DNA from: Periplaneta americana
Lineage: Eukaryota > Arthropoda > Insecta > Blattodea > Blattidae
DNA length: 64,000 bases
Direction of reading: 5' to 3'
NCBI RefSeq assembly: GCF_040183065.1
Contig: NC_091124.1
Coordinates: 91,411,001 to 91,475,000 of the forward strand
Notes under the pieces: generated by a model
Told to the model about the DNA's origin: nothing
Database searches by the model: none
The model's input: the letters and a program-made list of their open reading frames with translations, nothing else
Translations under genes and position numbers: made by a program
Shown here: positions 23,931-57,525 of the stretch, one piece after another
How positions within the stretch are numbered: the first letter of the stretch is position 1
Layout of the letters: each line of letters starts with the position of its first letter

Positions 23931-23934
23931 ACAA

Positions 23935-25498
23935 CCACAGTCTAGTATATACAGTCACGAAGCTTAATACTTACTAAATATGCAAACATAGACAGTTGAA
24001 ATACGCATCCATAGATAGTTGCTCACCACCAGGATCGCTACTATCGCCTCATCACACACTCTTTCCCTAGCAGACCATAAAATGTATTGTACTTTCGATA
24101 TCGTGTTCTTTTGAAAAAATTAACATCTTCCTTCCACTACTTATTGAAATATGAAATACATAAGGTTTATATATTATTTTCATAAAATATATATTATATT
24201 CTATAAACTCACCTTCCTGGATCTTTCGGAAGAAGGATACTCTAACCTATTTTTCTTACAATTTATAGTACTACAAACGTCTCCTTGTCCCATATTATTA
24301 TTCAAATTATTGTATTTTAGCCATTTACAGTTATTACAATCGATAACGAACATTTCACAGTTTACATAGCTTTTCACAAAAATGCGAAATACGGCATAGT
24401 CAATGCTTTTTCGATCAGGCCGTAATGTTTGTTCGGGTTTTCTATTTCAGTGTATGGAACTCAGTGAAATATTATAACTTTATTGCTTATCATTGCTAAG
24501 CTTTATTTAGTGTAATATGTCCATAAGTTCCGTTTACTTCTTGTTGCATAATATGTTGCAGAAATAATTACAAAACTGTGTTTTTACATGTTAACATAAA
24601 ATATTCGCGTCAACATTTCAAGTTTAGAATGGAAGCTATTTTGAGGTTCAATAAAAAAGAATTTATATTGTGATTTCAATTTAGCACATCTACCTTCCTT
24701 AATTTTAGACAAAACATTTACCATACCACTCCTATGAAATTAATGTGCGTACAGTTGTGTTACTTCGACTCCTAAGTACTAGATAAATACAATAATTCAG
24801 TACTCAATTCAATTGAGTCAATTGTAGTATTAAAATACAGACAAATTGAATGTCCGGGGTATCATACATGAAATTCTGCTTAATTATATTGTATGATTGC
24901 GAATTTAGGAATATAAGTTAAATATAGTAAACATAACTATTAATTTTCATATGAATGGCAAGGCATTGGAGATCACTAAATTTAGACGGAAAGGGGCAAC
25001 TGGTACAGTAAACATAACCTATAATTTCAACATATCTAAATATCCCTGCGGTGCAATTGAAAATTATTGAATCGTGCATAAATGAATGTACAAGAATTTC
25101 ACAATATTTAATCGAAATAAAGACAACTCCCAGAAATTACACATACGAACAACGTAATTTACACACCATAAATAATATTACATCTTAACTCGCAAGTGAA
25201 TTATGTCTGAAGTGTCTCATAATCATTGTTTTTTAATTTTATTAATTGAATTACACTACATTTTAGAGAAACATGTGTTACTGTTTATGCATTCCAACTA
25301 ATTTATATGGTTGAAACGCCGCCCTTCGTGATCGGGTTAAGCGAGGTACATGGTCTGCCTTACGGCCTGTATTAGATCACGATGGCTGTGGCACAGTCTA
25401 TTGTTCCTAGTATTCACAGCGCTCCAAGCGGCTAGCAACTATCGCGAGATTTGCAAAAAATCACCCCAAGCTTCGTGACTGTATATAGTAGACTGTGG
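23935..25498. mobile_element. element E: 1.56-kb element with 31-bp inverted repeats, P-like
   Basis: The first 31 bp (23935-23965, beginning CCACAGTCTA) and the inverse of the last 31 bp (25468-25498) differ at one base. A 31-bp repeat is the length known for Drosophila P elements. The flanking 8-mers TAGTACAA (left) and TAGAACAC (right, read after removing element A) agree at 6 of 8. No ORF. Element A is inserted exactly at its right end: A's duplicated target includes E's last two bases. Confidence 0.6.
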
Positions 25499-25568
25499 TA
25501 GAACCGTTGCTTACGAGATTACACAAGCTGGCGCATAGCACGATCGAGAGTACAGTGGCTATATGAAT

Positions 25569-26695
25569 CGTTGCTTACGAGATTACACAAGCTGGCGCAT
25601 TGAGCTTGAAAAACGAGTCTGAAGTGGTTCCCTCGTAATGCCAATTCCGCCGCTCGGAGCGCTGTTCTGCCCTATATATTCATAGCAGAACACTTAAAAG
25701 ACATTGACATTTGGGACATTTAAAGGACTCACCATTGCTTATTAAATGCTTCGTACAATATTTTATGGCCAATAGACGTAATTTGTAAACTTCTACTCCT
25801 CAATTATATTACAATAAAAGGCTGTCATTGTTGATATTAAAACATATTACATATAAACTGAGGGACTGTCTGCTCTGTACTTCAGTTCATACACCAAACA
25901 TTTCCGGAAATAAATTAACTTGACATCTTGCATATACGCACTATAGCCTACCCTTTTCACCTAATATTATTAATATTGCTATTAAATAAGATATTGCAAC
26001 TAATTAAGGTACTTCATTATCTTTAATTTCCTTGAATTCATAATTAAGCATTTGTAAGAAGGCTAACTTTTCTCTCTCTTTTAAAAAAAATACGAACGTC
26101 ACAATAATTGAGAAGTATAATTATTAATAAGTACAGCATGAAGGTAATTCATTACTTTTGTCGGTATTTTCTAAAAGAGAAAGGGAAAACAGTAACAACA
26201 TTATCTTCAATGTTTACATCACGTCGTTCACATCTTCATTAGGCCTATATCAGTAATGCTTGGTAAGTGAAATAATGCATGAAATTATTTTACATTTCGG
26301 GTCACATCATTCGAGAGTCGGAAAATGCAATTCGCCACTTTTAACATAGCATTGCTTGTTATATGAGAGAACTTTGACATTTACCTTAACCTATAAATAT
26401 ACGACCTGTTGGTACAGAGTTCTTCACATAGCAAAACACAGACAATTTTCAAATATAACTTAGCTGAACAAACTTCAAATAACACTGTAATATGCTTGGC
26501 ATATTTGTAATATTCGTACTCAATGAGTAATGCACAATTAATCGAACTATTTTCACGATGCACAATGCTTTGTAATGGTACTATTCATCATTTCATAGGG
26601 CAGAGAGGCGAACCTAGCGGCAGAAATTGTCATGACTCACAGAGACCTACTCTCGATCGTGCTATGCGCCAGCTTGTGTAATCACGTAAGCAACG
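25569..26695. mobile_element. small A-family element (1127 bp), complete, in the left repeat of B
   Basis: Ends CGTTGCTTACGAGATTACAC and the inverse CGTTGCTTACGTGATTACAC, matching for about 32 bp with one difference. Exact 8-bp duplication ATATGAAT at 25561-25568 and 26696-26703. Its right third (26390-26640) equals 53529-53780 of element A inverted. Its left half (25621-26126) equals 56591-57093. So it is an internally rearranged deletion derivative of A. The minus-strand frame at 26381-26563 recurs at 53612 only because the DNA is repeated; it shows no known domain. Confidence 0.85.
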
Positions 26696-27268
26696 ATATG
26701 AATACAGTGTGGCCATTGGACGTATCGTTTCTGATTGGATGTTGCGGTCACGTTGTACAATACCGCCATTAAGATTCCAAACAAATAGTTGGAACCCGTG
26801 TTATTCGTCTTCAAGACGTGAAAAAATAAAGAATTGCGTCTGATTTTCAGCTGATTTTATGGATATACCTTCAAGGTAAGATAATAATTACATTTCTTTA
26901 ACATATAGATATAGGCCTAAGTATTCTTACTGTAATCCACGTAATATTTGTGCTACAATGCAAAAGATGAAAACTAACATCAGTTGTTAGCATGATAACG
27001 AATTTTATTATTTCCTTTAAGTAATTAAACATGTAAGCAGTCGTCCGGATAAAAATCAGAAATTATATTAGACTGACGTTTACTCCATTATTTACAGCGT
27101 TTATTTCCATTTTCATCCATAGTTAACAAGTTATGAAACAGAAAATCGTGAAAGAAATATAAGTTGGCTATTATTCAGTACATTTAAGCTTTATTAAATA
27201 CATCAGAAATTTTTTAATGCTTTAAGCATTAACGAACTTTATACAATTCCTACAATGAAAACTCTCTA

Positions 27269-27435
27269 ATGTAATCTTCATCTTACGATGTTTGGTGACG
27301 TATACACGTCCGTTGATGTGACATATTAATGACTTTAAATACTATTATAGTCACAATCATGCCAGGTTCGATTCCCGCTCGAGATTGTGAAATTTTTCTT
27401 TCATACCATGGCATGATTGTGACTGTAATAGTATT
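27269..27435. repeat. 167-bp insertion flanked by 13-bp repeats, with a foldback
   Basis: TGAAAACTCTCTA occurs at 27256-27268 and 27436-27448. The inserted DNA holds two 27-nt inverted arms (AATACTATTATAGTCACAAT… at 27336 and its inverse to 27435) around a loop with GGTTCGATTCC, which matches a tRNA B-box. Probably a rearranged SINE fragment. Confidence 0.5.
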
Positions 27436-27689
27436 TGAAAACTCTCTATTACTATTAAATTATAAGTAGGCCTACATGTCACAATTTATTTAATCTGTAC
27501 CTATAAATATTTATTTAAGATGTTCTTCAGTAAAACACAATAGACGAGCCATGTTTCACTAATCAAATCATATTTTAGCTTATATTTGAACGTATTTTCT
27601 GTCTGTTGTGGAACTACTATATTCTATACCTGGTCCAAAATTTGTATAAAAAATATATTAATTATTTCACATGCGGTTTTTTATTACAG

Positions 27690-27915
27690 ATATAGTTGGA
27701 TGTGCGCCTATGGATGTACAAATCGACCCGAGAAGGGCTTTGTAATGAAAAAGTTCACTAAGGATCCTGGAAGTAGGAAGACCTGGACTCCTAAAGTCAC
27801 AATGAGGGATGGATTCCTACAGAGAGCTCTGTCCTATGTCTGTTATTTGTCTATGGTCCTATGTGAGGTATACTTGACTCGAAAACATGACGGCCTCTCT
27901 TCTTGGAATTGGTAA
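27690..27915 (+). pseudogene. THAP-domain fragment of element B
   Basis: After an acceptor-like TTATTACAG the frame reads WMCAYGCTNRPEKGFVMKKF, TKDPGSRKTW, VTMRDGFLQ, then VLCEVYLT. The CxxxxC pair, the conserved Trp and a later C-x2-x-like position resemble a THAP C2CH zinc finger, the DNA-binding domain of P-element transposases. The final C-x2-H is lost (CEVY). Nothing of a catalytic domain was recognised further on in B. Confidence 0.55.
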
Positions 27916-28892
27916 TCCCTCATAAACCCCCATCCTCTACTCAACCCCTAGCCGCGTGGAAGAAATACAATAGATCCCAGCATTGCCAAATCTAGCAGTC
28001 ATTGCCTCTACCTGTTGGGTTTCACCCGTTTTCAGTATCTTTTTAGACATTTGTCGACGTGTTATTTCTTAAACTTAAGCTCCTAGTTCACATTTAAATT
28101 TGGCTCATCTATCTTACTGTAATCATTACTATTCTTATATGTGTGTTATTCTGTGTTTTTGGCAACCCAGGATGCCTGGGCAGACTATTTCTTGAAATAA
28201 ATTATATATATATACCGTTGTGCGCTTCAATATGTCTATTTATTCCGGCCATGATTAATGAGTGTTGTAGCAGATGATCCGCAGCCAGGCCTCCTGATTC
28301 ACCTGAAGATCCAGGACCATCACAAGAACAAATAACACCGTCGAAGAAAACAGAATATCTTATTTGTAGAGGAGCGTAGCTAAAAAAACAAAGTGTTAAA
28401 ATTATTCTAACGTTAGAAATTCTATCCATATTGTAATCGAAAGTTAAGGCAGTTTGATAAGTACAAATCTTAATCACTCAACATCGGACGCAATCGGCGG
28501 AGTTGGTAAAAAAAATTATATATGGGGCATAGAAATTAAGAATTACGATTCACCAACTGAAGAGAAAATAAACTAAAACAGAATTCGGTAAGATAGACGA
28601 TTTTATACGTGATTTACTTCGTCGAACAGAATGTGAACAGTACGCGAAAAAGATATCGCCGACAGCAAATAAACTTACGGAAATATTCTGGCCTGATTTG
28701 TACATTATGTTTAAGAATACAGAAAAAATTTCATTCGATTCTATCCAGCACTTTCGGAATTACCAGGAAAAGGATTTTTAAGGAATATAGTTTGCGAAGA
28801 GGAAAAAAAAGCTCATGCCGTTTTCCACTTAACAGCTGTTATAGCCAATGCCGCACTTTACATTAAAAATCATAACTTCAGAACTAATACAG

Positions 28893-29141
28893 AGCCACTG
28901 GCGTAGCTCAGTTGGCTGAGTTGACTACCGATCCGAAGTTGCACTCGGGCGTGGGTTCAGTTCCCCCTTCGACTGATTTATCTGATTGGGGTTTTTTCGA
29001 GGTTTTTCTCAACAGTAAGACGAATGTCAAGTAATCTATAGCGAATCCTCGACCTCATCTCGCCAAGTACCATTTTGCTATCACCAATCCCATCGACACT
29101 AAATAACTTATTAATTGATACAGTGTCATTAAATAACTAGA
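28893..29141 (+). mobile_element. tRNA-derived SINE, 13-bp TSD
   Basis: Same family as 8949-9213: GGCGTAGCTCAGTTGGCTGA A-box region, GGGTTCAGTTCCC B-box, body ATCTCGCCAAGTACCATTTT, tail AAATAACTAG. Exact duplication AGAACTAATACAG at 28880-28892 and 29142-29154. Inserted into element B. Confidence 0.85.
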
Positions 29142-30909
29142 AGAACTAATACAGGTTGTTTTACCTGAATGAACTTCAATAGTTGGTGTAGAAATTTAAA
29201 TTTTATATTGCGCCTATATTTTACATAACAGAATTTTAAGGTATAAGAAGTGTACATGCATCCTTAATTAATTCAATCATATTTCGTATCTTATAACGTT
29301 CCTTAGGCCTACAGAAAATTTGCATCGAATCAACAATTAAACTGGCAGAGAAACAAATATATTCTTTTTTGTGCTTTAATATGATTTTCGTGTTATGAAA
29401 AAATGATCTAAAAGGAATACATTTAACCATGACTGGTATCTAAACTGGTCTTTATTTCACCGTCCTTAGCAACTTAAATAATGACATTATTCACAGCAGT
29501 GCTTAAAAGTTTTCTAACTTACAGCAGTGAATTAAATGTTTTTAAATCACTCTCTATATGACAACCAACATATTAGCATTAATTAAAATGAATATATACG
29601 AACTTCTTTGCCAACAACACATTACAAAGAAAATACCTACAATTTAAAATTAAATTTATATACCAGTAATGAATAAAATATTGTATAGCACACTAGAGTA
29701 AACATTTTAATTGCTTGTGGAAATTATCACCCAAGGCGAAGCGGATAAAATCTAATTTTACTCTCTTGTAGTATAAATTGCTATTCATTGATCACAGTTT
29801 CCGAAAATTTTACCAGCGTAACATCCTTAATTAAGTATAAAATTCTGGAACTTCAATAACATGAGAATTTAATACTTATTATATAATTCTGCATTTCTTT
29901 GTTTAGGCTAAACGTGTTAGTGAAAATATAAATATAAAGTATTTTTAGAATAAGTGTGTTCATTTTTATACCAATTTTGTTTTAGTAATTTATAAATGAA
30001 GGTATATTTACAAAGATAATATAGTCTCGCTGAAAATCGCGGTTTCACGGAACAGAGTTTGAAAAACGTTCGCAAATCACAATGACTTCAAGAATTTGGC
30101 AACTCGGCTAAGGGTTTATCCCTTGAGCGTGCCTGCAGTTAACTGGTGAAGGGGATGAGGGAAGGTCGTCATGCTTTAATGCGAAGTATAGCTACAGTTT
30201 GAAGAATCCACATGGGGAAAAACCCGAGAGGATAGAGGATACTGACATCACGTTTCACACAAGATTGGAAAATTTGTTTAGTTTGCCGGTAGTGAGATCA
30301 AAACAAGTTACTCCTAATGCGTCCCAGTTTGAGAACACATTAATAAGACTAATATGTGTTATCACAGTTTCTTAATGATGTGTCACAGGGTAGTTATAAT
30401 GAGGATGACAGAGGATTTTAAGTGGTTTCCGAGATTTTTTACAAGAGAAGGGTAATACTGTGCGTGATGAGCAATTGAGATATTGAAAGAGACCGCGGGC
30501 CTTCAAACTGAGTTACAGTGAATTGAGTTCATTATATAATATTTGTGGATATATTATAATCTCTGGTATTATGAAGACTATAAAAACTTGTGAAGTGTGT
30601 TTAGACATTATTGTCTCAAATATCATTTATTACAATACAGATAATGTTGAATTTACAAGTATCGGTATTAAGTGCTTCAGAGAGAACTGCTTGGTTTTTT
30701 ATTTATTGTAATCATTTAACTCAAATTTTTCTGTATATCAGAGCAAACTTTTAGTAAATATTGAGCTATTGTAAAATATCTTAATATTGACTTGAAAACA
30801 TTTTTCCTACATAAGATGCAGAATGTTAAAACAATTCGTTTTGTCCCTGACATAATAATATGACAATAAATTCTTCCTAGGTTTTCAATCTTAGGCTTAA
30901 AATAGCTGG

Positions 30910-31760
30910 TATGCGTAGGCCTAAGCAGAAGAGAGAGTAATAAGTTGTTGCTATGCACAGCATTTGGAATATACTTGTTCAATTCCTGCAAATTGTTTGT
31001 TTAGACCCACATAACCATTCTGCTGACCTAGTTGTTCATTTGTGTTTAACAGATCCTAGTGATTTATGGCTTAAAATTTTGGGATATTGTGAAGGACGTG
31101 TCATCCAATTACTCGCGACTTTTGGTATGCCTTGCACGTACAAATATGTAACAGGTTAGGTCAGGGGCGAATTTAGGCCTAAGCAGACTAGACAACTGCC
31201 TAGGACGGCAGATTTGAGGAGGCGGTTTTTAAGCTATCACTGTTAATTCTTTTATGTTTTTTAAATTTTATTAATAACTCTTTAAAAGAGTACATAAACG
31301 TAAACGCACAATGAAAAGAATATGAATAACATTGGCAACAATTAGTTCAAATGCAATCAACAGAAAAAAGTCAGTTTTTTAATAATGATTAGTGTCACAA
31401 TGCGATCACAGCACTTTTTTCATTGTTATGCCCTCTCACTGTGAGAGTCTCACGTGATAACATTAAAGAACTTACTGGCATTATATTACGATAAAAGAAA
31501 AATTAAATGCTTAAGTAGAAAAGAGAATAATGGTAATATGTCTGTTGCTATGCAGATACACAGCATTTACAATATTATTGTTTAGTTTCTGCAAATTCAT
31601 GAGTTTGTTTTTAGGCCTACCTAGCTATTCTGCTGACCTGGTTATTCATTTGTATGTAATAGAGATTGATGACTTTAAAATGTTATGTAGGATTTTTTAC
31701 TGTGATTATAGGGTATTATTGTTCAACAATGATCTTAGCTTGGGAAAATATATAATCCTA
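30910..31760 (+). repeat. diverged direct repeat pair inside element B
   Basis: 30910-31120 and 31512-31760 share a series of words in the same order: AAGAGAGAGTAAT/AAGAGAATAATGG, GTTGCTATGCA, CACAGCATTT, TTCTGCAAATT, TTCTGCTGACCT, TTCATTTGT. The spacing is about 600 bp. Between them, near 31158, a CAGGGGCGAATTTAGG phrase resembles a hAT end, but no partner end was found. Confidence 0.45.
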
Positions 31761-32239
31761 CAAGATGTAGTTTTGATGCAATAAACATTATAAAACATCT
31801 GATATCCCATAGCGGTTAACCTAACCTTACTTTGCAGTTTAGACCTATATTATTCCACGACAACATACAGGAAGCAGGTAAGACAGGTAGTATTTTTGTT
31901 TTTATATACCTCAGATCTTATTTAAAGACGTTTCTTGTCAATAATTGTGAATATATGAGTATTAGGTTACGATTTTCTTATTAGCTCCATAAGAACCTTC
32001 AGTGTGTTTGGAATCTTAATGGCGGCGGGTGGGCGTGTCCAACTCCAATGGCCACACTGTATACCAACGAGTTAGAAAGAGAAGAATATAGAGTGGCCAT
32101 GTTGTCCTGTACAGCGCTCTTTGCGGTGCCACCGCGAAACACGGCAGATATGAACTAAGCGCCCACCGTTGTAAAAATTCGTCTGCTTACAATGTTGTGT
32201 ATACGGAGGCAGAGCTACGAAAAAATAAAGAAAAAAACA

Positions 32240-32560
32240 TGCCTGTTGTATGTGCTGCATATAACTGCAATGTCAAAAGGAAAAAGACAACTGATATATC
32301 ATATTTCATGTAAATTTTATGAAGTTAAGTCCATAGTTTTGTTAATTAGCTGCATTCCTTTTCATGCATAAATGTGTAACAACGCCCGGCATACCATGCG
32401 GTGTGTACAGTATTTTTCTTTTCTTGCAGATTCCCTTTGAAAAAAAAAGAAACTGTTGAAACAGTGGATAACAAATATGAAACGAGACAAATGGTGTCTC
32501 TCCGAGGTGTTAATTTCTAGAAGTTCTTTCAATAGTCCATCAAAACACTTGTTTATAATT
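32240..32560 (+). pseudogene. THAP-domain remnant of element C
   Basis: Starts MPVVCAAYNCNVKRKKTTDI SYF, with the C-x4-C start of a THAP zinc finger. A donor-like CATGTAAAT follows and, after an acceptor-like TTTTCTTGCAG near 32429, the frame resumes as FPLKK.. then LLKQWITNMKRDKWCLSE, which is the conserved FPxxxxxxxxW block. An A-run causes a frameshift and the second Cys/His pair is gone. It lies 140-500 bp inside C's left end, where a P-like transposase should begin. Confidence 0.6.
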
Positions 32561-33504
32561 TATGATGCAGTTTCGCACAACCTTTGTTGAAGTCCCTAAA
32601 TTATTTACTGTAGTTTTGGTGAACTGCATTTTCTTGAGAAAAAGAAAATTAAATTAACACTGTCTTTATTATATCATAAGCTTTACAGGAGAAGACAGCA
32701 TGACTGTTTTTCATGACAGTTATAAAAACTTTTTCTGTAGCAGTACCAAAAACCCGGACAACTATGAGTTGAATCCTCTAGATTCAAAACCCCCTAAAGA
32801 CCATTTTGTTCATAATTGAGTTACGCCCACATATTGCTTGCAGAGAATGAATTATAATGATTTATATAGTTTGAATTAAGAAAGCCACTAAATTTAAAGC
32901 AAAAGGTTTGTTAAAAATCACTGTCAGGTTGAAAACTCCCTCAATTTTTCACTACTCATCCTACTCATCCTTCAGTTTGTGAAATTAGATATAGGGATTT
33001 TGAATCTATGGGATTCAGTTGTCCACAAATGTTATTCATATTGTATATTTCCGCAAATAAGATAGTATTCAGATAATACGAGGTATAAATTTGAAGCACA
33101 ATATTATGGTTTTGCTTAGATCTGTCCTTTAAAATACCCTCAAACTAACAACTGTCATGGGAAAAAGTGAAAGTGTAAACAGTGATAAAATCCTTAAAAT
33201 AAATATGGAATTTCTAAAGCGATGGATAGCACAGAGGACGATTTGTTAAGGACTGGTTATGGCGAAATAGAAACCGACTCGTCACATTCAGAATGGGACC
33301 TATATGATGGCGCTGTCAACAGTGAAAGTCAGGATATATTTTACGAGCTCTTTGCCTCAGACAACGAATGTGATCTGTTGTTTTTTATAATGGTTTTAAT
33401 GTAGAATTGTAATGTGTCTTTTTCTTTTATCTGCCATATAAGACGACCCTGGTTTTGTGGATTTATTATGCAAACTTACATACCACGTAGTGGATTAGCA
33501 GATT

Positions 33505-34125
33505 AGGAAGTGGAAGAAAGCTATGACAAGATAGAAGAGGTAGTTGAGAAGGAGAAGAAGGGAGCTGCGTAATCCTAATGGGCGACTGGAACGCAGCAGT
33601 AGGAGAAGGGCATGATGGACGAACAGATGGAAAATGTGGATTGGGAAAAAGAAATGACAGAGGAGAATCTTTGGTGAATATATGTAAGAGAAATGCAGTG
33701 AATGTTGAAAATACACTATTCCAACAACATAAACGAAGAAGATACATCTGGGCATGCCCAAGGTACGAAATCAGATATCAGATTAGACTACATACTGGTG
33801 CAGGAAATATTCCGAAATTGCTTAAAAAGTGCAAAGGCTTTACCATATTAACTCAGACCATGTCCTGTTGGTAATCGAAGTAGATTTTCGTCTGAAGAAT
33901 ATAAGAGGAAAACAGGTGATGAAGAAATTTTCAAGAGAAAGCTGCTACATTAAAAACCACACCTGAGAATAGCAATGAATACTGGACTCGCCTAAAAAGC
34001 TGTATAAAGATACCAGCAGGAGAAACAATAGAATACAGAGAAGGCGTGGAAATGAAGAAACCTTGAGTCACAGGGAAAATGGACGAAAGGAGAAAATTGA
34101 AACAAATACAAAGAAGACTTCACTA
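33505..34125 (+). mobile_element. LINE fragment, apurinic-endonuclease domain
   Basis: Reads EEVVEKEKKGA then LMGDWNAAVGEGHDGRTDGK, GLGKRNDRGESLVNIC, TLFQQHKRRRYIWACP, YQIRL. GDWNA is the catalytic GDxN motif of the endonuclease/exonuclease/phosphatase fold used by LINEs to nick the target. Frame is lost after about 33870, but linker words continue to about 34125. Same family as the C-terminal pieces at 5855, 23203 and 34868. Confidence 0.7.
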
Positions 34126-34867
34126 TGAAACTATTTCATGTGAATTTCGTTGAATATTTCTACTGAAAAAAATAAATACTTCAAGTCAATGATGTGTGAT
34201 ACAAATTATAATGCATTTATATTTAAAAACAAAATAAGTCAATTTGTAATCTCTGACTTACTTTAATGAGTCTCCGATCAACAGCGTCCATGACCTGGCC
34301 TTATGTATGTACCACTACTTGTAGTTATCCTGTTTAGCCAAAGAAGGACGCATTAACCTTTCCATTTTACAGTATTTATTGTGTTGGTAGGTAAAGTTTT
34401 ACTAAGAAATTTTATGTAAGTGACATCTTAGAAATTTGTTATAGGCCTAAACATGAATTAATTAAAATATCGAGTGTCCTAAATAAGGCAAGTCACGGAA
34501 AATTGGAAAAATACTTTCAGCCATTAATAAAACTGGCATCATGCATCATTCTTTGTTTCACCCGCTCGCCACGATGAGGCACAGGATATGAGCGGGGCCT
34601 GAAACAAAAGAAACAAAATAAAACAAAAAAAAATTGTATTAGTGAATATACAAAAGTAGTTTGATTTCTATTAATACCATTTGAGTACTACCTCCATTTT
34701 TTCTTCACTTACACTTCCTCTCCCTTCATAAATCAGGATCCTCAGTCTGGTGGCTTCTGAATGCTGCATATAAAGTTGCAATGTGTTCAAGATGTAAATC
34801 GGATACTTCCATAAATAGACACAAAATATTTATATCTCATTTGCAAATAATTTATTATTATTTTCAG

Positions 34868-35090
34868 GAATTGGTTGGGTCACGGGCTGAAAAGAAACTG
34901 CGTACTGAAGGATGCACTGAAAGGAATGGTGAACGGGAGAAAAGTTGGGGGCAGAAGAAGATACCAGATGATAGACGACATTAAGATATGTGGATCGTAT
35001 GAGGAAACTAAGAGGAAGGCAGAAAAGAGGAAATATTGGAAAATGCTGGGTTTGCAATGAAAGACCTGCCCATGGGCAGAGCACTTATAT
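34868..35090 (+). mobile_element. LINE fragment, 3' end
   Basis: C-terminus LVGSRAEKK/GHGLKRNCVLKDALKGM, RRRYQMIDDIKICGS, KYWKMLGLQ and stop, followed by CCATGGGCAGAGCACTTATA and an (AT)/(AC) repeat to about 35115. About 80% like the copy at 23203-23451. It lies 0.75 kb from the endonuclease fragment, in the same orientation, so both may come from one deleted insertion. Confidence 0.7.
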
Positions 35091-35140
35091 ATATATACAC
35101 ACACACACACACAATATTTATACATATTATACAAAACCAT

Positions 35141-35390
35141 CACGATGGTCCAGTGGCTAGAGCGCTGGACTCAATCCTGTGAACCCAGGTTCGATCTCCG
35201 GCATAAGCACGCATCCTACACAGGTATTCTCCGGAAGCTCCTGTTCCTCTGAGGTATCCTAACAAATCTCCCACAACCTCTTCTCAAAGTGGATGTAGTG
35301 AAGACCAGTCTTCTATGGCGCACCGTGGATGACTGTCTGTAAATCGGTCTGCACAACTGGCTTCATATGATGAAACATATTGATAAACGC
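35141..35390 (+). mobile_element. tRNA-derived SINE, second family
   Basis: The head GATGGTCCAGTGGCTAGAGC (A-box) and GGTTCGATCTCC (B-box) is followed by about 170 bp of body with TCTTCTATGGCGCACCGTGG and a tail TTGATAAACGCACAAC. No clear target-site duplication; it abuts the LINE tail microsatellite. Confidence 0.65.
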
Positions 35391-35539
35391 ACAACAATTT
35401 AACAGAACCCATCTACATAGAGAAGTAGTCATTCTATGCTAAAAATGTATCAAGAGAATTTTAAACTGATTTATGCTGAGAAGGAAAAGTAAATAAATAT
35501 AATAAAAACTTGAGAAAAAAAGAACACTTATTTTAAATA

Positions 35540-42432: not shown

Positions 42433-42486
42433 TAAGATTTTAACATTTCTCTTGGCCGTAGACATGCCAAAGTCTCTTGCATATGT

Positions 42487-43669: not shown

Positions 43670-45865
<2,196 letters not shown>

Positions 45866-45879
45866 ATAATGACATTAAA

Positions 45880-46440
45880 CTCTGATGGCGTTGAATCATA
45901 TGGAACGCATAAGTACAAAACAGTGGGTGCCAGAGATTTTGGCAGGTGAATTTTGTTAATCTGAACTCCAGAGCGAGTTACTCACCGCTGTTATCGCTGT
46001 CACAAGTAACCTGCAGCTGGAATGGGTGGGATATAAAAATAAATATACAGGCCCGAGCCAAAGACGTTATAATAGTATACTAGACTCACACAGAGCGCTG
46101 GTGTGCTGTCCAAAATTGAAACCAGTCTGCGCATGTTTACGCCGCCATGCTACTGGTAGAAATAGAGCGGTAAACACGATTGTCATACTTCTCCTTTGTT
46201 TTGTCTCGGGTGTTTTTAGTGAATAGTGTGAAAGTAATGGCAATATAATTTTGAAAGATGATATATTATCGCCGCGGACTCATGCTTAACATGTCGGCAT
46301 CATACAATAACGTGCGGTGTGGTTTAAAAAAATAATTTTGCCGACCGATTGTTGCTCTGTAGGTTTCACTCTAAGCGTCACGTTGTCACGTCTACTTTCT
46401 CGATAAGAATAAGCACTAGTTTGTTATATTGTTAAATGGC

Positions 46441-46507
<67 letters not shown>

Positions 46508-48585
46508 TCATATACGAGTACGTTGGCTTTCTTAACTCTTAATAATAACTCTATAATAATAATTTTTAATCACATACCTTAATGTTCGTCCTCAGCACAA
46601 GACATTGCAACCTCGGGTTTAGTCCACGTGGATTAGACAAGTAAGTGTCATTTAATAATAATTGAAGCAGCTTATTGGTTGCATTATTGAAATTGAGGCG
46701 AGTGATTGGAGCGGCGACACAAGAAATTTAAAACAATAATACAATTAAATTTCAAAGACCTGCCGAACGCATGAGGCCGCTCAAAGACCTGCCGAATGTT
46801 AACCATGAGAGCGCGGCGATAATACCATCCCTGTTTAATTTTCCAAGCTATTTGCAAAAGGTACGATATAATATTATCTCTGTTGTTACAATATCAATAT
46901 CATTAAAAATCAATCAGTAGTTTACGACAATAAAGAATACTTAATTGTTAGTACAGGTATATCAGACTGTAGAGAAATCCCACTGAGTAAATTATTTAAA
47001 CTTACACATCAGATGTTAAACCATTAGTGGAAAGATAACTTTTTGTTTTTATTATGTAAATGAATTTATCTGCAAGATAATAAACTTTCATTCAAGATCC
47101 ATATATGGATAAATAAATATACAGATAATAAATAAATAAATAGCTATAATAGCTAAGCCTCCTTTGTGAATTTATGATTCAGAGTTCACCTATAAATAAC
47201 TCTTTTACATTTTGCCGGATATATTTTATTAACAAAAGCAAGGAATGGCATCTTATTGATATTGCATATGTGCATAAAAATTATGTACCATCACTCCGCA
47301 AGCAATGATAATATATCTATTTTATTTATTTAAAATAAAAATACAATATGTAAAAAATCCACACATAAAAAGTATGTGGTTTTTTTTATCTTGCATAAAG
47401 TGATTGTTTAGTTTTTAGGTCTTCACGTTACCTATTGTTTGCAATGTATTAGGTACCGATACTTTTTATAATTGATAGCATTCCCTTTATTAATTGAAGA
47501 ATGAATTCAATGTAATTTGACTACCTTCGCATATTATATTTTGCCAGATTACCTATGTCCTGTGGTCTAAAAGTACCGGTAATATAATTTATTTTTGATT
47601 CTCTAAAACTTAACAAGTCTATACTGATTATCGCATATTTATTTCACTTAGGAATTTGATTATAACAAGAACTTGTGTAATCAAGGTGCATATATTTATG
47701 TCTTGTGATCTAAGAGTTAATATGTTAATATAATTTTAGATTCTCTCAAACCTAACAATTTGCTGATTATCGTAAAATTATACAATCTATAATGTGTATT
47801 GTGTAGGCCTATTTATGGATGTATCAGTATGTTTTCTATAAATTGCTGCATACGTATTTTCTTTTCTTTAATGTTCTAACACATATCAATGAAACTTTGA
47901 ATATGTTTATTTCGTCCTAATTTTACGTTAAACGTCGAAAATGGCCATAATATGTCAATTTTAGATCATCACAGCGTTAAATTGCGTGATTTACGCACTG
48001 CTATTATTTGTCTGCTCTCCAACAATATGGCGGCAAGCGCAGCGTTCAATTTGCCCCGGTTTCCTCGTTTCGCGCAGCCGGGACTGTAGGGGCTTGGCCC
48101 GAGCACCAAAGACGTTTTATAGTTTAACCTAGACTCACTAGGAGCGCTGTTCCTCGACTCAAAATTGAACAATTTCGCGCATCGCCATCTTGAGGTCAAG
48201 AGATACGTGACTGCTCACGGTCGACTTTAGTTTTACCTAAATTACAAGCTTGGGGGTAAAGGGTGTTTGCTACAGTTAGAGTTAGGGCCTACTTTCATTC
48301 TATATCTTATGATTAGACTTCGTTGAATTGCCACACGCAGCATGCAATCATGTTGCCGATGTACGGTAGTATAGAAGAGGTGAGCGACCGCCCGGTCTCG
48401 TAGTATAAGCAGTTCATGTTAAAGAGTTGTGACCGGTCCAAATAGATAGAGCAGCTACAGCTAATGTATACCTATGTAGGCACTTGTTTTTGCATTACTG
48501 TGGTTGGAATAGTCAAAGCTTAACATTTGTTCAGTGCAGACAAAAATTCAATCAAACATGCCACAATGAGAGTGTTGCTGTTCCA
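45880..48585. other. no gene; repeat scraps of an unnamed MITE
   Basis: AT-rich. Two related stretches at 46052-46130 and 48095-48165 share GGCCCGAGC-CAAAGACGTT, AGACTCAC and GAGCGCTG…CAAAATTGAA. The word AAAGACGTTTTATAGTTTAA recurs inverted at 62298. No ORF of note. Confidence 0.4.
46440..46507. repeat. (TTA)n microsatellite
   Basis: About 22 perfect TTA/ATT units. Confidence 0.95.
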
Positions 48586-48589
48586 AATA

Positions 48590-49200
48590 ATATTTTCTCC
48601 TGGAATACCCTTACCCCCGCAGCCAGTCTTGACCCGTTGGAAAACATGGTTGGATGCTGTTAATTATTATGCAGAATATTATGGCAAAATAATGGAGGTA
48701 ATTAATGCATTGGATAGCGCAGACAGTTCGCTGTTGCAGCTGTAAAATTATTGCCTTCTGAATATTGGAAGATATTGTGTACATTGACTCTAATTTTAAA
48801 ATCGTGTCCAAAAGCATCATCCTATTAGAATCGTCTAAACTACAACTCTGAGAAGCCCTTAATATAATGTATAAAGTATCACAAACCGTTATCCAAAATA
48901 ACAATTAACTAATTTCAGAAAAGTGAAATGTAAGTTAAGAAACATTATTGCTAAAAAATTCTGCCTATTTACAACTTCGTATTATAAATTTTATGTACTA
49001 TCAAGTCACGACAAGACGTCTGAAATTGGTGTACTAAAAAGTAGTGACTTTCCGTTCTTCAAATATGCTCCTATTACATCGTGTGATGTTGAACGTACAT
49101 TTTCCCAATATAAAAACTGTTTGAGTGACCATCGGAGGAGGTTCACTTTGGAAGTCGCTCAAAATGTACATAACTCTTCACTGCACATATTCAAGGATGA
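48590..49200 (+). pseudogene. decayed hAT transposase related to 43907-45391
   Basis: IPLPPQPVLTRWKTWLDAVN then YYAEYYGKIMEVINALDSAD parallels residues 297-333 of the intact protein. About 290 bp on, YAPITSCDVERTFSQYKNCL then SDHRRRFTLE parallels its C-terminus. Opposite strand to the intact copy. The middle is missing or scrambled, and no terminal repeats were found. It is an older, diverged relative rather than a recent copy. Confidence 0.75.
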
Positions 49201-50312
49201 TGTGAGTATATTACATTAAATTTTTAAGAGTTAATATATCTCACTACAAAATAATTGTGTATTTACATGTTTAGACATTTCCTACTTCAATGATCATTCA
49301 TTATATTTCTTGAATGCAGAATACAAGTTTTATTGTAACTGCAGTATACTGCTCAGTGTTTACATCAGAGGCATACTCTGTCCGTCGCACGTCCCCTTCT
49401 CATACACTCATACAGTCTATACCGCGTGCGTAGTAAACCTTACGATTCTCGTGGCAATTCCACGAAGTCTACTTATGATATAATAAATAGTTTTGCAACG
49501 TGTAGAGACTGGGAAAACAATTTAATAAAATCAACCGAATCATACTAGTTCATTTTATAGGCAATCTTTCGGGTCGCATTTAAAAGAACCTAGGAATATT
49601 AATATTTTCTTCAGAATATTTGCTAGGCTTCTTGTCATACGTACATGACAATTTTGCTTAGATTATTCCTTCTAGGAATAGCTCAAGTGTTTTGAATTTA
49701 GCGTACATAAGGTCTTTATTTTAGATTAAGTTACTAGCAAACATTTGATGAAATACTAGGTTTTTCCACTTCAGTTTAACTGATTTATGCAAATGGAATT
49801 TTGACAGCTGGCGATTGCAATTTAACTTATCGCCACGCCCACTTTATTTTGGGCGCTTAAGTTAATGGCGGATGGTAGTTCAATTTTCTTCAAACATGGC
49901 GGAGCAATGGCCACTCTATATCTCTCTCTTTCTAACTCGTTGCTGTATACATACAGTCACTGTATCGAGAGCACTGCCTGCTGGATCACATCCTTTGGCT
50001 GCGTAACTGCCTGCTCATTCCTCTTCCTTAGCTTTGAGTTTCGCGTGGACATTATTGTCCAGTTTCGACACTAGAGCGCAGCAAGTAACTGCCGTTGAAT
50101 TGGCTGTACTAAATGTGTAGAATTAATTATACTGTCTTATTTGACATCTTAGAAGTAATTACAGTGTTTGTCAGTTAATGTTTATTAATGATATGATTTT
50201 CTTCTTTAAAATATATTGGAAGAAAGAAACATTCGGTTTGAAATACATTTAATTTTGTGAGATATAAAACTTGGTTTCCTGAAATAACAATATTAATTAT
50301 AATATATTTGCA

Positions 50313-52590
50313 ATGGTGTCTTGTTGTGTCCCTTTCTGCAAAGCGCACAGAGGAAAATTGAAATTCAGAAGATTATCATTTCATGAATTTCCATCTAATA
50401 GTGAGCTGCGGGAAAAGTGGTTAAAGGTTAAATATTATATCAAGAGAAGGTGACAAAAGAGGAAGTAAGTGGATTCCTTCTGATCGTTCATGTGTGTGTA
50501 GTTTACACTTCAAACAAGAAGATTTTAAAGAAGATACAAAATATAGGAAACTGAAAAATTTGCCGATACCAAGTATATTTCCTGGATATCCTTCATACAA
50601 GAAACCTTCTAACAAGAGGAAGAGAAGAGTCAGAAACTCAAGTTCATCATTCTCCGAGGAGAACAACGTCTCAAGATTGGCTGCACAATGTCAGGAGGAC
50701 ATTGAAGCCGAATATCGTGAGAAAGACATAGAAGCCGAAATTATAAAAGACAAGGCAGATGTAAACGTATGTTCCAGACATATGCTGTTCAAGTAAATAC
50801 TGTATGATTAAGTGAACTGGAATATCATAAAAAATTAAATAAAAATCTTCAAGCGAAAGTATACAGACTCGAAAACAAAATTGTGGAAATAGAGAAGGAA
50901 CTTCAAGAGGCGAAGGAAGAAATTAATAGCTATACTGAGAGAAAGTCAGTAAAAGGTAAAAGGTAAAGGTAGCCCTGTAATATGCCATTAAGGCACTTAG
51001 AGGACATGGAGGTATAGCCCATGGTTTCCATGACCTCGGCACTAGAATGAGGTGGTGTGGTCGGCACCACAGGAAAGACCTGTTAATCAATTTTATAGGA
51101 GGATGAGTGAACCTCAGGTCCGTTCTGAAAGTTTGGCAACAAGGAAAAATCCTGTCATCACCTGGGATCGAACCCCGGACCTTCTAGTCCGTAGCCAGTT
51201 GCTCTACCAACTGAGCTACCTGAGAGAAAGTCAGTAGATAACATAAAGGAATCAGCACATGATGGCTACAAAATGGCTGCATATTAATATACTGGATCAA
51301 ATTAGAAATTAAAAAAAAAATCGTCCAAAATGGTCCGAGCCAATTATTCGGTACTGCTTATGTTGGCGAATATCGCCTCCTAAAGGCTACGACTTTGGAA
51401 GAAATTTGAAATTAATACAAGCACCGTCGCGCAGCATATTAGATAGGTATATGGGCTCAACGGAAAATGGCGTTGGTGTTTCCCCTTTAATTAAACAGAC
51501 ACTTAAGTTAGAAGCCACAAAATTGAATGAAATTGAGAAAGTAGTTTCTCTTATATGCGATGAAATGGCAATAAAAGAAAGCTTGCTTTATAATAAAGAA
51601 AAGGGTAAAATTTTTGGTTTAGTCGAAGCTGAAGGAGTTTATGATAAAGAAATAGGAATAAATCCCGTCTTAGCCAACAAACTTCTGTGTTTAGTTATTC
51701 ATGGATTATCTACCAAGTACACAATACCGGCAGCATATTTCATGGTACGAAATTTGCAAGGAAATGATCTGCTCTTATTAGTTCAGCAAGTGTTGAAAGC
51801 TGTAAAGACTTGGATTTCATGTGCTTCGGCTTGTAACTGATAACCATAGAACTAATACTGCTATGTTTAAGGGTTTAGGCGGCGGAGATCTACAGCCTTG
51901 CGTAGTACACCCATGTAACTTGCAACATAATTTATATTTAAGTTTTGATTACTGTCGCATCATCAAAAACATCCGTTCACAGTTTCTAGACCAGGATATA
52001 GCAGACAGAGAAGGAATGATCAGTTCAAAATTCATCAAGGAAATATACAGGATACAAAAGGACTTAGCTGTGAAACTCATTCGATTTCTAATGAGGAAGC
52101 ATGTCGAACCCAGTTCCTTTGAGAAAATGAACGTTCTTTATGCTGTACAGACATTTTCATTGGAAGTTACAAGCACTTTGGACTAAATGAAGGACAATCA
52201 TATAGGCCTACGTCTGACATCTCGGGTAAATTTTTCAGAAGCAGGACCAACAATACGTTTCATGAAAAATGTGTACAAATTTTTTACTGTACACGACATA
52301 AGCGATAAATTATCTGTTTACAGTATTTTACTCGGCACTTCTTTTCGGGGACGGGGGAGAATTTTTTAATGAGCGCAAAATTTATCACACTTCAAATGGG
52401 CTTTTTATATATGGGGAAGTTACTTTCTGGCAATACTGAACTTAATAAAACAGTAGACCAAGTGTCCGTATAACAATTTCATGGATTGGAAGATACTGCG
52501 GGAAGATACCACATACTGTCGTTAATTCAAACCGTGATTTCCAATAATCTTGTAGCTCGGTTAAAGGAAGCATATATTTTTTCGTAAATA
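50313..52590 (+). pseudogene. P-element-like THAP transposase, disrupted
   Basis: Segments in order: THAP start MVSCCVPFCKAHRGKLKFRR (C5, C9), FP, W; one frameshift near 50430; CVCSLHFKQEDF (C-x2-H) and IPSIFPG, the AVPTIF-like box; a basic stretch KRKRR; coiled coil 50826-50945 (LEYHKKLNKNLQAKVYRLEN KIVEIEKEL); the SINE; then from about 51380 PPKGYDFGRNLKLIQAPSRS, VSLICDEMAIKESLLYN (first catalytic Asp), NLQGNDLL, and, after a frameshift, LVTDNHRTNTAMFKGLG (second Asp), FDYCRIIKNIRSQFLD, VHDISDKLSVYS, ending near 52590. Domain order equals P transposase/THAP9. At least three frameshifts plus the SINE make it inactive. Confidence 0.85.
50952..51220 (-). mobile_element. tRNA-derived SINE, fourth family, 16-bp TSD
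   Basis: The minus-strand head GGTAGCTCAGTTGGTAGAGC (A-box) and GGGGTTCGATCCC (B-box) is close to a real tRNA. 3' tail of ACCTTTT units. Exact 16-bp duplication TGAGAGAAAGTCAGTA at 50936-50951 and 51221-51236. It interrupts the coiled-coil region of the P-like transposase. Confidence 0.9.
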
Positions 52591-53016
52591 TGTTTAAACT
52601 TGTTGAAATATTTTATATAAGTTTCAAATATTATTTTTATTACGTTAATTGATTTTAATAATAATTTTAGTAAACGCCTAATGCAAGTATATGCCTACTT
52701 GTTTGGATGTAGTATCGCTTAGAAAAAAAAAAAGTTTTAATTTCAGTATTAATAGTATTACATATTAAGCATTGCGGAAGGATTCGGACACCCTGGGCCA
52801 TCGTTTCCATAAGCCCTTGTCTCTTCTGGTACCTAAGACTTCGTAATAATAGTTATTTTGGGGTACTTTGCATATACTGATAATGTTAATAGTGGTGGGC
52901 ACTACCTGCCACCTAGCGGCAAAATAACTTTTTTCAAGACTCGCTCATAAGCGTTGATTGAGCAGGCAGTGTAAACAGCCATAGGATGTGATCCAGCAGG
53001 CAGTGATCGAGAGTAA

Positions 53017-53525
53017 GGCCGTGTCTCAAAGCTCAAGTCCATACTACACACTAGTGACTAGCACTAGATGACTTGTAAACTACACACTAGGGAGCTTTGG
53101 ACATGTATGCTTGAAACATGGCCTTCTTCACAGATTATTGTTCTAAAAACCCATGACATCATGGTGCAGCACTGAATTAAGAGGGCAGTGTCCTAATGCA
53201 GTTTCATTACGACTTATGGAAAAGATAAGAGCTTAATATATTACAATAATGTTTAAAACATTGTACAGAAGGTACTAACAATGTCAGTGTTCATTATTTC
53301 ACTTCCAAAGCATCTTCAGATTTCATAACCCCAATTGTTAATGAGGTATCCATGTTTGTTTAGTGAACAAGTCATCAATCAAGCAAGCATTTTCGTTTAC
53401 TAGCTACTACGGACTTGATTGCTATGCACTACGTAGCTTTGGATCATAACTTCTGACGTCATGTCCGGCTATTTAGTCAACAATCTAGTTCACTTGAGCC
53501 GAAAATGTAGCTTTGAGACACAGCC
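53017..53525. mobile_element. PIF/Harbinger-type MITE
   Basis: Ends GGCCGTGTCTCAAAGCT and the inverse GGCTGTGTCTCAAAGCT with TAA at 53014-53016 and 53526-53528. 509 bp, non-coding. It sits a few bases beyond element D, inside element A; removing it restores A's GAGAGTAAGTCTCTG. Confidence 0.75.
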
Positions 53526-54377
53526 TAAGTCTCTGTGAGTCATGACAATTTCTGCCGCTAGGTTCGCCTCGCTGCCCTAAGAAATTATGAATAGTACCAT
53601 TACAAAGCATTGTGTATCGTGAAAATAGTTCGATTAATTGTGCATTACTGATTGAGTACGAATATTATAAATATGCCAAGCATATTACAGTGTTATTTGA
53701 AGTTTGTTCAGCTAAGTTATATTCGAAAATTGTCTGTGTTTTGCTATGTGAAGAACTCAGTACCAACAGGTCGTATCTTTATAGCTTGCTTTTTAAATTA
53801 CATATTGTCTGTCTTAGTTTTCCAATAAGCTGATTTTGTTTCCGAATTGTTCTAGTAATTTTTTTACGTTGTAATGTAATGGCTTTGGGAATTTGTTTAC
53901 TTTCAATTGAGCACTGTGTGGCTATAGTTTTTTTATGTGCTTCATAGATTTCTTCAATTGAAACATTTGCTTCATTGAAAGCTGATGTACTATGTTCAAC
54001 ATTGGGTTTATTTTTCTTAGCAGGATGGATGTTATCAAATACTCTACAATGATAATACTGGAAAGTTCACGGAAAAAGTGGCGAATGACTCACCAGTGCT
54101 ATCTAGCGGCAGGGATTTTAGGCAGATAGGATGACGTGACGAATGGCGCGTTGAACTGTGATATGAGCTTCGTTCTTCAACAAACACAAACTGTCCTAAG
54201 GATTATTCTCATTATAGTTCTAGCCTATCCAATGTCAGTTAAATGTGGAAATGTTTGTTCTATGTATTGTAAAAACTATGCCTAGCAAAATATGTTAGAT
54301 CTTTCTTCAGATTTCCAAAAGATAGAGATTGGGAGTATTCGTGTAAACACTAGTAGAATATTATTTTCCTGTTATAA

Positions 54378-54430
54378 GATGATGATGATGATTATATTAT
54401 TATTAGTATTATTATTACTATTATTATTAC

Positions 54431-54463
<33 letters not shown>

Positions 54464-54470
54464 TGTTTCT
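54378..54470. repeat. imperfect ATG/TTA trinucleotide microsatellite
   Basis: GATGATGATGATT followed by about 28 ATT-type units interrupted by ACT/GTT variants. The plus-strand frame with a poly-Leu run here is a by-product. Confidence 0.85.
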
Positions 54471-57255
54471 ACTACCGGTACTACAGTTATTTGCGTTTGT
54501 CTTTTAGGTGTGCCAAGCTCATATAGACAGACGGTATGTAATGAGGTTTAATAGGACGCCTCAGCTACTATCGCTATTTGCGTCCTTATCTAAACCTCTT
54601 TAAAAAATAAAACACAAACAATATCATAAGCAAAATGCGAGCACTAACTATAAATGCTGTCAACAGTTCTAGACGAAGCGTTTAAAATGAGAGAGATAGA
54701 ATATATTACGTACAAAAATCACAAAATATTTTCAGATCACTTTTGATTATCGGACTTCAGTAACCATAATTCGAAACATTAGGAGTAAGTAAAAATAGAG
54801 TGTAATAAATTGGAAAAGTATACCGAAGTTTCAAATCAGTCGTAGGGCTGTTAATTTTTAATACTCTCTTTTTAATAAGAGAATGAAGATAATAGATTTT
54901 TCTTCACTGAATTTAACAGCTCCTTCTTCCGAAAATATGAGTCAAAATCAAAGCATAATGAAAGAATCGCGAATGTCCCAAATAAACATATTAGATCTTG
55001 CATCGAGGAAGCTACGGGGTTTCTTATATTAGACAGAAACGACAAACCATACTCCTCCATCGTATAATTAGATAGTGCATTAGCAATGACATATTCTCTG
55101 TGTTAACTGAAACAGTTACTAAACTGCATAAATCTACTTTAAATTGTTCATATAAAACACAATTTCTTTATAGTTTCTCCGTATAAAAACTTGAAAGTCT
55201 TTACTTTTTTAAATCCAAATAGTGTGACTTGAGATGCGTAACAAAAATGTGTATTGTTGATTTTGTAAAGAAAGTGGACTCATGTTTTTTCATAATAAGT
55301 GATTCAGGTAGTTATTCGGAAAAATAATTTGCCTAGTCCTACATTTTAAAGTCATTCTTAATATTTCACTAAATTAAGATCTTTTTTTACGATGCAAGAA
55401 ATCCTAAAAAATAAAAAATGGCTCAAGTGGAAATGACAGCTCTGAACACAGCATGTCCAAATGCCGATTTAATTAAATTGTTCAAGATGATGAATGCATT
55501 ACTCACAAGTGTACTTAAAAAGAAGGAAATGTGGAAACGATATTCCAGTTACGATAAAAATTTTGCCGCAACATTCCATTACTGTTCACCTCAAGGCTAA
55601 AGATTTCTAAGAATAAAATTATGTTTACCAACAGTTAGATCTCTCAAAAATTGACTTCATGAATTTGGTATAGGCCCGGTATAAATCGTACCATTCTACA
55701 ATTAATTATTAAAAATAAAATCCGATATTCTACCACTGAGTGAAAAAGTTGTAACTATTATTGTTGAAGATAAAAGGTATTTGAAGGAAAACAACTTATA
55801 ACTTAATGCTAAAACAGACACTTTCAGAGATTCATTGAATTAGGTATAGATAGGCCTAATATACTTCAACCGACGTAAAAATTTCAGAAGTACCATTTGC
55901 AAATCAAGCACTGGTTTTCATTATTCCGAGGAGTACGTATAATTTATTTTCTATCGAAAGGTACCATGTCTGGAGAGATTTTAAAATCACATCTGCTTGA
56001 TGTAAAAATAAAATACAAATTACAGGCTTCATCCCTAAAGCAGCAACTGTGCCAGTATCTTCACTAACAAACATTTCAATGTGCTAATAAATTGTTACAT
56101 CAAAAATAAAATGGATAATCATGAGCCTAGGAGCGAAATACGCGATGTATGAAAGTTTCTAAAGTCATGCACAACTAAATCATTTGAAAATACGAGAACT
56201 GTCTCATTTCATTTCTATTCCAATAACTTTGTAACTTCTTATTAATTAAAAATGTTATGAACCCTGTGACTCTAAATAAAACTATTGATTTGCATTTTTG
56301 ATTGACTTCAAATGCACACCTCTCAGTTTTTCCTCACGTAACCTAGCACGCCGCCAGGAGTGTATAAACAATTCAAGCCGCTAGCAGCACAGTCACTTTT
56401 CGCCGCCGCTTGCAAAGCTAAACAGGTAAGCTTTCCAGTATTATTGTTATAGAGTATTTGATGTTATTCACCACTTCTGTTATCCTTCTTTTGTTGCGTC
56501 TACTTATGTTTGAAACATTTTGTTTATGTTTTGGAAAATCATCAAAGACGGATGGTACCACATTAGGAAGCAAACGTTTTAATGTTGCGGTCTGAAGTGG
56601 TTCCCTCGTAATGCCAATTCCGCCGCTCGGAGCGCTGTTCTGCCCTAAATATTCATAGCAGAATACTTAAATGACATTAACATTTGGGACATTTAAAGGA
56701 CTCACCATTGCTTATTAAATGCTTCGTACAATATTTTATGGACAATAAACGTAATTTCCAAACTTCTACTCCTAAATTATATTACAATAAAATGCTGTCA
56801 TTCTTGATATTAAAACATATTACATATAAACTGAGGAACTGTCTGCTCTGTACTTCAGTTCATAAACCAAACATTTCCGGAAATAAATTACATCTTACAT
56901 ATACGCACTATAGCCTACCCTTTTCACCTAATATTATTATTATTGTTATTAAATAAAATAATGCAACTAATTAAGATACTGCATTATCTTTAATTTCCTT
57001 GAATTCATAATTAAGCATTTGCAAGAAGGCCTAACTTTTCCCTCTCTTTAAAAAAAAAATACGAACGTCACAATAACTGAGAAGTATAATTATTGCGCGA
57101 TTTTTTCTTGCAGTGGTGAAAACATTTCTATAGGCCTACTGATTAATCTATTAAGCATAGTAATAGTAAACGCTGTAATATTTTCGTGCGTGTAAATATA
57201 TTTTGAATTAGCATTTATTAAATTAGGAAGTTAGCCTGTAATTTGAGTGATTGAA

Positions 57256-57477
57256 ATGGTTTATTGCTGTGTGCTATTGTGCAAATCGAACCAGAATAAA
57301 GAATGTGATTTTTCGTTTCATTGTTTTCCACAAGATAAAGGACTAAGAAAGAAGTGGTGTGTAGCCATTTCTCGCGAAGGGGACAAACCAAGGACTCTTT
57401 GGACGCCAAACAAGAAATCGCGTGTCTGCAGTAGACATTTCAAAGAAGCTGATTTTAGCATTAGCAGACTCGTTTTT
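57256..57477 (+). pseudogene. THAP domain of element A, truncated
   Basis: MVYCCVLLCKSNQNKECDFS FHCFPQDKGLRKKWCVAISR then EGDKPRTLWTPNKKSRVCSR HFKEADF. A complete THAP C2CH signature: C5, C10, W, and C-x2-H (CSRH), with FP in place. The frame then runs into the right inverted repeat, so the AVPTIF box, coiled coil and catalytic domain are missing. EGDKPRTLW and EGDKRGSKW in element D mark the two as relatives. It could still encode a small DNA-binding repressor-like protein of about 91 aa. Confidence 0.7.
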
Positions 57478-57525
57478 CAAGCGCTATGTGCCAGCTTGTG
57501 TAATGTCGTAAGCAACGAGTAGAAC

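Follow-up and report, generated by a model that had tools for sequence, protein, structure and literature searches.

A nest of P-like transposons in the American cockroach and the repeated insertion of other families into the terminal inverted repeats of one of its members

In the genome of the cockroach Periplaneta americana, seven elements with inverted ends are nested in one another within a 64,000-nt stretch of contig NC_091124.1 (positions 91,411,001 to 91,475,000; hereafter the window). They comprise the elements E, A, a small A-family element, B, C, D and F (Table 1), most of which resemble the P superfamily of DNA transposons. The nest is of an ordinary, known kind, and the part that deserves attention is the repeated use of the terminal inverted repeat (TIR) of B as a landing site. 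The original prediction, made from the letters of the stretch, had called the nest unusual, which holds only in part; insertion into B's end recurs in the genome, with four junctions to A and two to C when the window is included. This recurrence is firm, and its cause is probably to be sought in the target sequences that the transposases prefer. Although nested transposons are common, the reasons for their nesting sites can seldom be tested.

Repeated insertion into the ends of family B

Within the nest, every P-like insertion lies near an end: E is at A's target, B lies 38 bp into A, the small A element 10 bp into B, C 14 bp from B's end, and D at B's target. Other copies were sampled to see whether such end-nesting merely reflects the selection of a striking case. 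With the window included, 40 of 94 candidate left ends and 40 of 105 candidate right ends of B were scored. Four of the 78 other B ends hold the end of a P-like element inside the TIR of about 24 bp, three of them an A element (loci L103, L135 and L141) and one a C-like element (L138), which was called from its first 12 bases and the C-to-B-end pattern only. A uniform model predicts 0.22 such TIR events against the four seen (P=5e-5); it takes the nine of 32 paired B copies longer than 3150 bp as carrying inserts in an interior of about 2.8 kb, a count that omits inserts under about 280 bp and unpaired B copies.

A search of the whole genome (3.23 Gb in 91 contigs) for the exact junction patterns returned the same loci, namely four junctions of A to B's end (window, L103, L135 and L141) and two of C to B's end at one and the same position (window and L138), while the reversed patterns returned none in either case. 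The A element at L103 occupies the same ATATGAAT as the small A element of the window but in the opposite orientation, and it therefore represents an independent event.

The remaining irregular ends of B have several origins. All eight left ends whose match begins beyond query base 3 were read: besides the A insertion at L103 they include three that look like small deletions between ACAGTG repeats (L102, L104 and L105), two variants (L099 and L106) and two unclassified ends (L100 and L101). Seven of the 11 irregular right ends were read as well and consist of the three insertions (L135, L138 and L141), a deletion (L139) and three unclassified ends (L136, L137 and L140). Among the 20 of 30 intact left flanks that were read, those of L116 and L118 gave weak short matches only and were not counted as P-like.

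Un-nested B ends, the empty sites that removal of the inserted elements leads one to expect, are frequent elsewhere. When joined across the small A element, the left end of B has an unbroken match, starting at base 1, in 30 of the 39 other copies scored; the right end, joined across C, has one in 25 of 39. In the window copy the matches to the joined ends begin at base 11 on the left and base 15 on the right, as expected.

The target of family A and its counterpart in B's TIR

A matrix of 20 positions summarizes the target of A; it is based on A copies that lie outside B, with 27 right ends and 5 left ends. None of the training loci carried a B end in the scan; two of these loci lie within E or next to a C-type end. 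The target is a palindrome, (A/T)GTGTnnnnACAC(A/T), in which G, T, A and C stand at positions 1, 2, 7 and 8 of the duplication in 19, 18, 23 and 15 of 27 copies, respectively, and which extends beyond the duplication on both sides. The targets of D have A (14/19) and C (12/19) at positions 7 and 8 and T (11/19) at position 2. B's TIR holds the near-palindrome CTGTATGAATACAG, and the intact core of its end reads ATACAGTGTGGCCATTGG. The best A-matrix site in the left TIR of the B copy at L110 is GTATGAAT, whose score is reached at 0.011% of window positions, and a site scoring as high is contained in 0.3% of 45-nt stretches. Its position is the one at which the small A element sits in the window and an A element sits in L103, so that a matrix learned elsewhere points to a position in B's TIR that was struck twice independently, once in each orientation. 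On the same matrix C's site in B reaches the 0.1% level, although the matrix is that of A and may not reflect C's preference, and D's right end and F score at 1.7% and 5%, respectively.

The ends, the duplications, the un-nested copies, the recurrence at B's end and the strong A-type site in B's usual TIR were all observed directly. They fit a nest formed by successive cut-and-paste insertions of P-superfamily-like families and growing at ends that hold a preferred palindromic target, a reading that we hold to be likely. A would have landed first, and B would have entered it 38 bp from its end; the small A element and C would have entered the left and right TIRs of B, respectively, D would share B's target 8-mer and E the target of A, and F, a miniature inverted-repeat transposable element (MITE) of another kind, would have entered A. 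The transposases would prefer a short palindromic target, and since some element ends contain one, the nest would grow at its ends; in the case of B, the basis for landing there would be the likeness between CTGTATGAATACAG and the independently derived target of A. Because each insertion duplicates its target, a second element can use the 8-mer that the first one used, and this would account for the adjacent positions of B and D and of E and A. We infer from these sequences that the preference of the transposases is what makes insertion into B's end recur.

A more far-reaching version, in which P-like families form a targeting network and the TIR of one family is a near-optimal landing site for the transposase of another, is a tentative idea that we consider rather doubtful. 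If it were true, nests would arise of their own accord at the ends of elements, an element hit in this way would be put out of action because its end is split, and B's TIR would serve both as the end bound by its transposase and as a trap for A and C. The agreement between A's matrix and the twice-struck position in B's TIR offers a concrete, falsifiable rule for how nests begin and for how one family might disable another.

Several observations weigh against a preference for such ends. Doubling the number of interior inserts in the uniform model raises P to 4.6e-4, and a fivefold number raises it to 9.3e-3. A control search for A beside a B motif about 55–93 bp inside the end found one junction, a ratio of four to one in raw counts rather than counts per motif copy. 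Only one side was read at L103, L135, L138 and L141, so that target duplications are not proven there. Both B copies struck at the position of GTATGAAT carry the sub-optimal ATATGAAT, which in the window copy scores at the 0.9% level; the A site in L141, ATGAATAC, scores at 0.23% and that in L135, ACAGTGAT, is not motif-like. B's own site in A scores poorly (8.8%) on a matrix that is A's and not B's, and the same matrix finds nothing notable in the ends of A, C or E. Finally, in 18 of 20 A right ends the roughly 200 bp read contain no known P-like end, and few D flanks lie near one.

The rule that all P-like insertions enter P-like ends was accordingly rejected, given those 18 A right ends and the majority of D flanks that show none. 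Proximity at a greater distance does occur: of 20 A right ends, one has an E end 124 bp away and another a C-type end 147 bp away, and 20 intact B left flanks include two with an E end at 96–103 bp and one with a D end at about 116 bp. Two A elements stand 57 bp apart at L006, and at L058 an E end has a D copy 14 bp beyond it. The case for end-targeting is thus good at B's TIR, whereas elsewhere the evidence is no more than suggestive.

Alternative explanations

Incoming elements might be drawn more by protein than by bare target sequence, if a transposase sitting on the ends of a related family guided them there. An inner stretch of the TIR is alike in B and C at 15 of 17 bases, insertions occur 96–147 bp from E, D and C-type ends (L062, L064, L108, L114 and L120), and the 8-mers struck in B's TIR are not the optimum of the matrix, the one in L135 being unlike the motif altogether. 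We nevertheless regard such guidance as unlikely: of the four insertions of A into B's TIR, two lie at the position of the best-scoring site and another is shifted from it by two bases, and the TIR of E is unlike those of the other families.

Somewhat less probable again is chance nesting, in which the sheer number of P-like copies would produce nests with no preference at work, the most striking of them having been picked. Candidate copies are indeed numerous (2265 for A, 2907 for E and 707 for D), a known P-like end stands within 170 bp of no more than two of 20 A right ends and near few D flanks, and one A junction was found at the control motif inside B. Chance would, however, have to account for four P-like insertions in the approximately 48 bp of B ends (78 other ends), as against nine of 32 copies with extra length in an interior of about 2.8 kb, and for the use of one 8-mer in opposite orientations. 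That the composite was duplicated as a block or misassembled is very improbable: the evidence comes from assembled sequence, and 19 of 29 D left ends show D travelling within another repeat, but each element has its own duplication, the interrupted families are unbroken elsewhere, and the recurrence of the same junction types at other loci makes an assembly error unlikely.

Structure of the nest and order of insertion

The elements were identified by comparing the window with itself and by reading their ends directly. The multi-family nest of P-like elements that had been predicted is present, and all the named ends and flanking 8-mers were read where they had been placed; since an exact 8-bp match at a single predicted place has a probability of about 4^-8, chance is excluded. 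The prediction of at least six elements was right for the six, although it overlooked a seventh, F, and an inversion in A (Table 1).

Table 1 Elements, target duplications and domain matches in the window
Feature	Position	Strand	Description
E	23936..25497	.	1562 bp; TIR CACAGTCTAGTATATACAGTCACGAAGCTT; no stop-to-stop open reading frame (ORF) of at least 110 amino acids
E flanks	23929-23935 / 25498-25504		7-bp duplication, GTACAAC / GTAGAAC
A	25505..57517	-	P-like; spans 32,013 bp, ~4.04 kb net; broken by B, D and F
A duplication	25497-25504 / 57518-57525		GGTAGAAC / AGTAGAAC
B	25551..49964	+	TACAGTG...CACTGTA; 5393 bp net
B duplication	25543-25550 / 49964-49971		ATCGAGAG
B interior	26704..32064	+	~2.5 kb above median copy
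Small A	25569..26695	+	1127-bp internally deleted A-family element inside B's left TIR
Small A duplication	25561-25568 / 26696-26703		ATATGAAT
C	32065..49942	.	17,878 bp; inside B's right TIR; holds other repeats
C duplication	32057-32064 / 49943-49950		CTGTATAC
D	49972..53005	+	3034-bp P-like element
D duplication	49964-49971 / 53006-53013		ATCGAGAG
F	53017..53525	.	509-bp MITE-like element inside A, between D and A's body; TIR GGCYGTGTCTCAAAGC
Inverted segment of A	56590..57464	+	875 bp; contains the THAP exon; orientation opposite to that in small A and L006
A THAP domain	57268..57450	+	Pfam E 1.1e-12; within inverted segment
D THAP pieces	50283-50450 and 50425-50796	+	Pfam E 5.6e-7 and 1.6e-6
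D TNP-like RNase H, N-terminal	51313-51840	+	PF21787, E 6.7e-18
D GTP-binding insertion	51806-52186	+	PF21788, E 1.9e-7
B weak THAP-like piece	27652-27912	+	E 0.016, under the Pfam cut-off

Once the small A element and C are removed, the two ends of B are alike at 32 of their first 35 bases; base 49964 is both B's last A and the first A of its right-hand 8-mer. The median length of the 32 paired B copies is 2870 bp, and because the interior of the window copy is so much longer, further inserts probably lie within it. The TIRs of C are 36 bp long and alike at 33 of 36 positions. A's end, which B splits here, is continuous in the small A element, as had been predicted, and also in four other full-length copies of the latter at 99% identity. 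The stretch that matches the inverted segment of A directly adjoins the TIR in the small A element and in L006; the inversion places A's THAP exon on the plus strand, with the linker-like next coding piece on the minus strand. F, in the single copy read, has TAA on both sides, a TIR of the form GGCYGTGTCTC and no transposase. PIF/Harbinger elements make a 3-bp TAA/TWA duplication and have TIRs that start with GG.

Target duplications at other insertions agree with the predicted 8 bp for A, B and D and depart from it for E, which duplicates 7 bp. For A, where right ends were fetched for 20 of 40 scored places and L002–L008 were obtained separately, all five other two-ended copies have exact 8-bp duplications, one of them weak because it lies within a short tandem repeat. 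Eight B duplications were read, six of which are exact at 8 bp, one is of 7 bp and one copy has none. Among 20 D copies fetched whole, a set that excludes the 19 left ends with a common flank described below, 15 were two-ended and gave nine exact 8-bp duplications (two of them with shared flanks), four with one mismatch, one with two, and one shifted by one base. Two ends were found in 16 of 19 other E copies, with 13 exact 7-bp duplications, two with one mismatch and one with three. The 8-bp duplication of C is known from the window copy.

The predicted insertions of B into A, and of the small A element and C into B, are borne out by ends, duplications and un-nested copies alike. The proposed start of the series, E first and then A into E, did not stand. 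The outer flanks read A-GTACAAC and A-GTAGAAC, and GTAGAAC lies between E and A; if A first entered AGTAGAAC and E then entered the 7-mer GTAGAAC, a single substitution accounts for all flanks, whereas the opposite order needs two. E's first 600 bases are 98–99% identical to three other copies, and A is 93.7% identical to the small A element over 511 bp and 96.1% over 259 bp. E thus probably entered the duplicated target of A, rather than A entering E. D does stand at the junction of B and A with ATCGAGAG on both sides, as claimed, but its place in the series is not fixed: the 8-mer occurs three times around B and D, with the one shared A at 49964, and because B followed by D and D followed by B yield identical sequence, the two cannot be ordered.

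Two further observations concern D and E elsewhere in the genome. Of 29 D left ends (L010–L038), 19 share the flank TCTCTGAATATCACC...ATCTTATCCATAAC or -AT, which is 98–100% alike in the nine loci compared and whose upstream stop varies, as if these D copies were carried within a 5'-truncated retroelement. A 141-bp miniature with E-type ends (L044:3812-3952) lies about 490 bp from a D copy.

Coding content and relation to known elements

A Pfam scan covered 17 protein fragments from the window, outside E. THAP domains had been predicted in A, B, C and D; they were found in A and D, whereas the piece in B fell below the cut-off and the sole C piece scanned for THAP, of 37 amino acids, had no match. 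The P-type RNase H core predicted in D was recovered together with the GTP-binding insertion (Table 1), and neither of these domains appeared in the scanned fragments of the other elements. No solved structure matched D's RNase H piece. A and D are P-like by protein because of these domains (THAP in A; THAP, RNase H and GTP-binding in D), while B and C count as P-like only through their 8-bp duplications, their ends and the elements that surround them. E, which duplicates 7 bp, is not classed among P elements with 8-bp duplications.

The P element of Drosophila is described as having an 8-bp duplication and TIRs of about 31 bp (PMC7776569) and a 14-bp palindromic pattern centred on the duplication (PMC4168063). 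The present families resemble it in their 8-bp duplications and in the THAP, RNase H-like and GTP-binding pieces of D, and the palindromic target of A is similar to the motif given for P and 1360 (PMC4168063). They differ in that several families are nested through their ends in one insect, that the TIRs of D and C are longer, and that they are known here from sequence alone. Galileo, another member of the P superfamily, is reported to make a 7-bp duplication within a 15-bp palindromic target (PMC4168063); E is like it in the duplication and differs in its 30-bp TIR and lack of a long ORF.

In Anopheles gambiae, several P subfamilies of 4.2–7.5 kb with 27–31-bp TIRs, 8-bp duplications and derived MITEs have been described; what we have of that account mentions nesting as a step in annotation, not the targeting of one family's end by another (PMC1562414). 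The P-element-like transposon Izanagi of medaka is likewise a case of sequential insertion outside flies, but its partner is Rex1, and the portion of the report available to us mentions no site preference (PMC5789577). None of the open-access titles and abstracts that our searches listed dealt with a P-like family landing in the ends of another, or with P-like elements of cockroaches.

C also carries repeats of other kinds. A DUF659 ORF of 530 amino acids at 43907-45499 is open and matches one Periplaneta americana protein at 100% identity over 48% of its length and another at 90% over 99%, and proteins of Blattella germanica at 92–96% over 38–44%. Downstream, pieces at 48524-49216 resemble a second, related copy, one of them with a sub-threshold match to a hAT dimerisation domain. 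An array of diverged units spaced at about 340 bp occupies 38254-40707, and nested inverted repeats at 36671-37198 have the appearance of a foldback or MITE-like unit.

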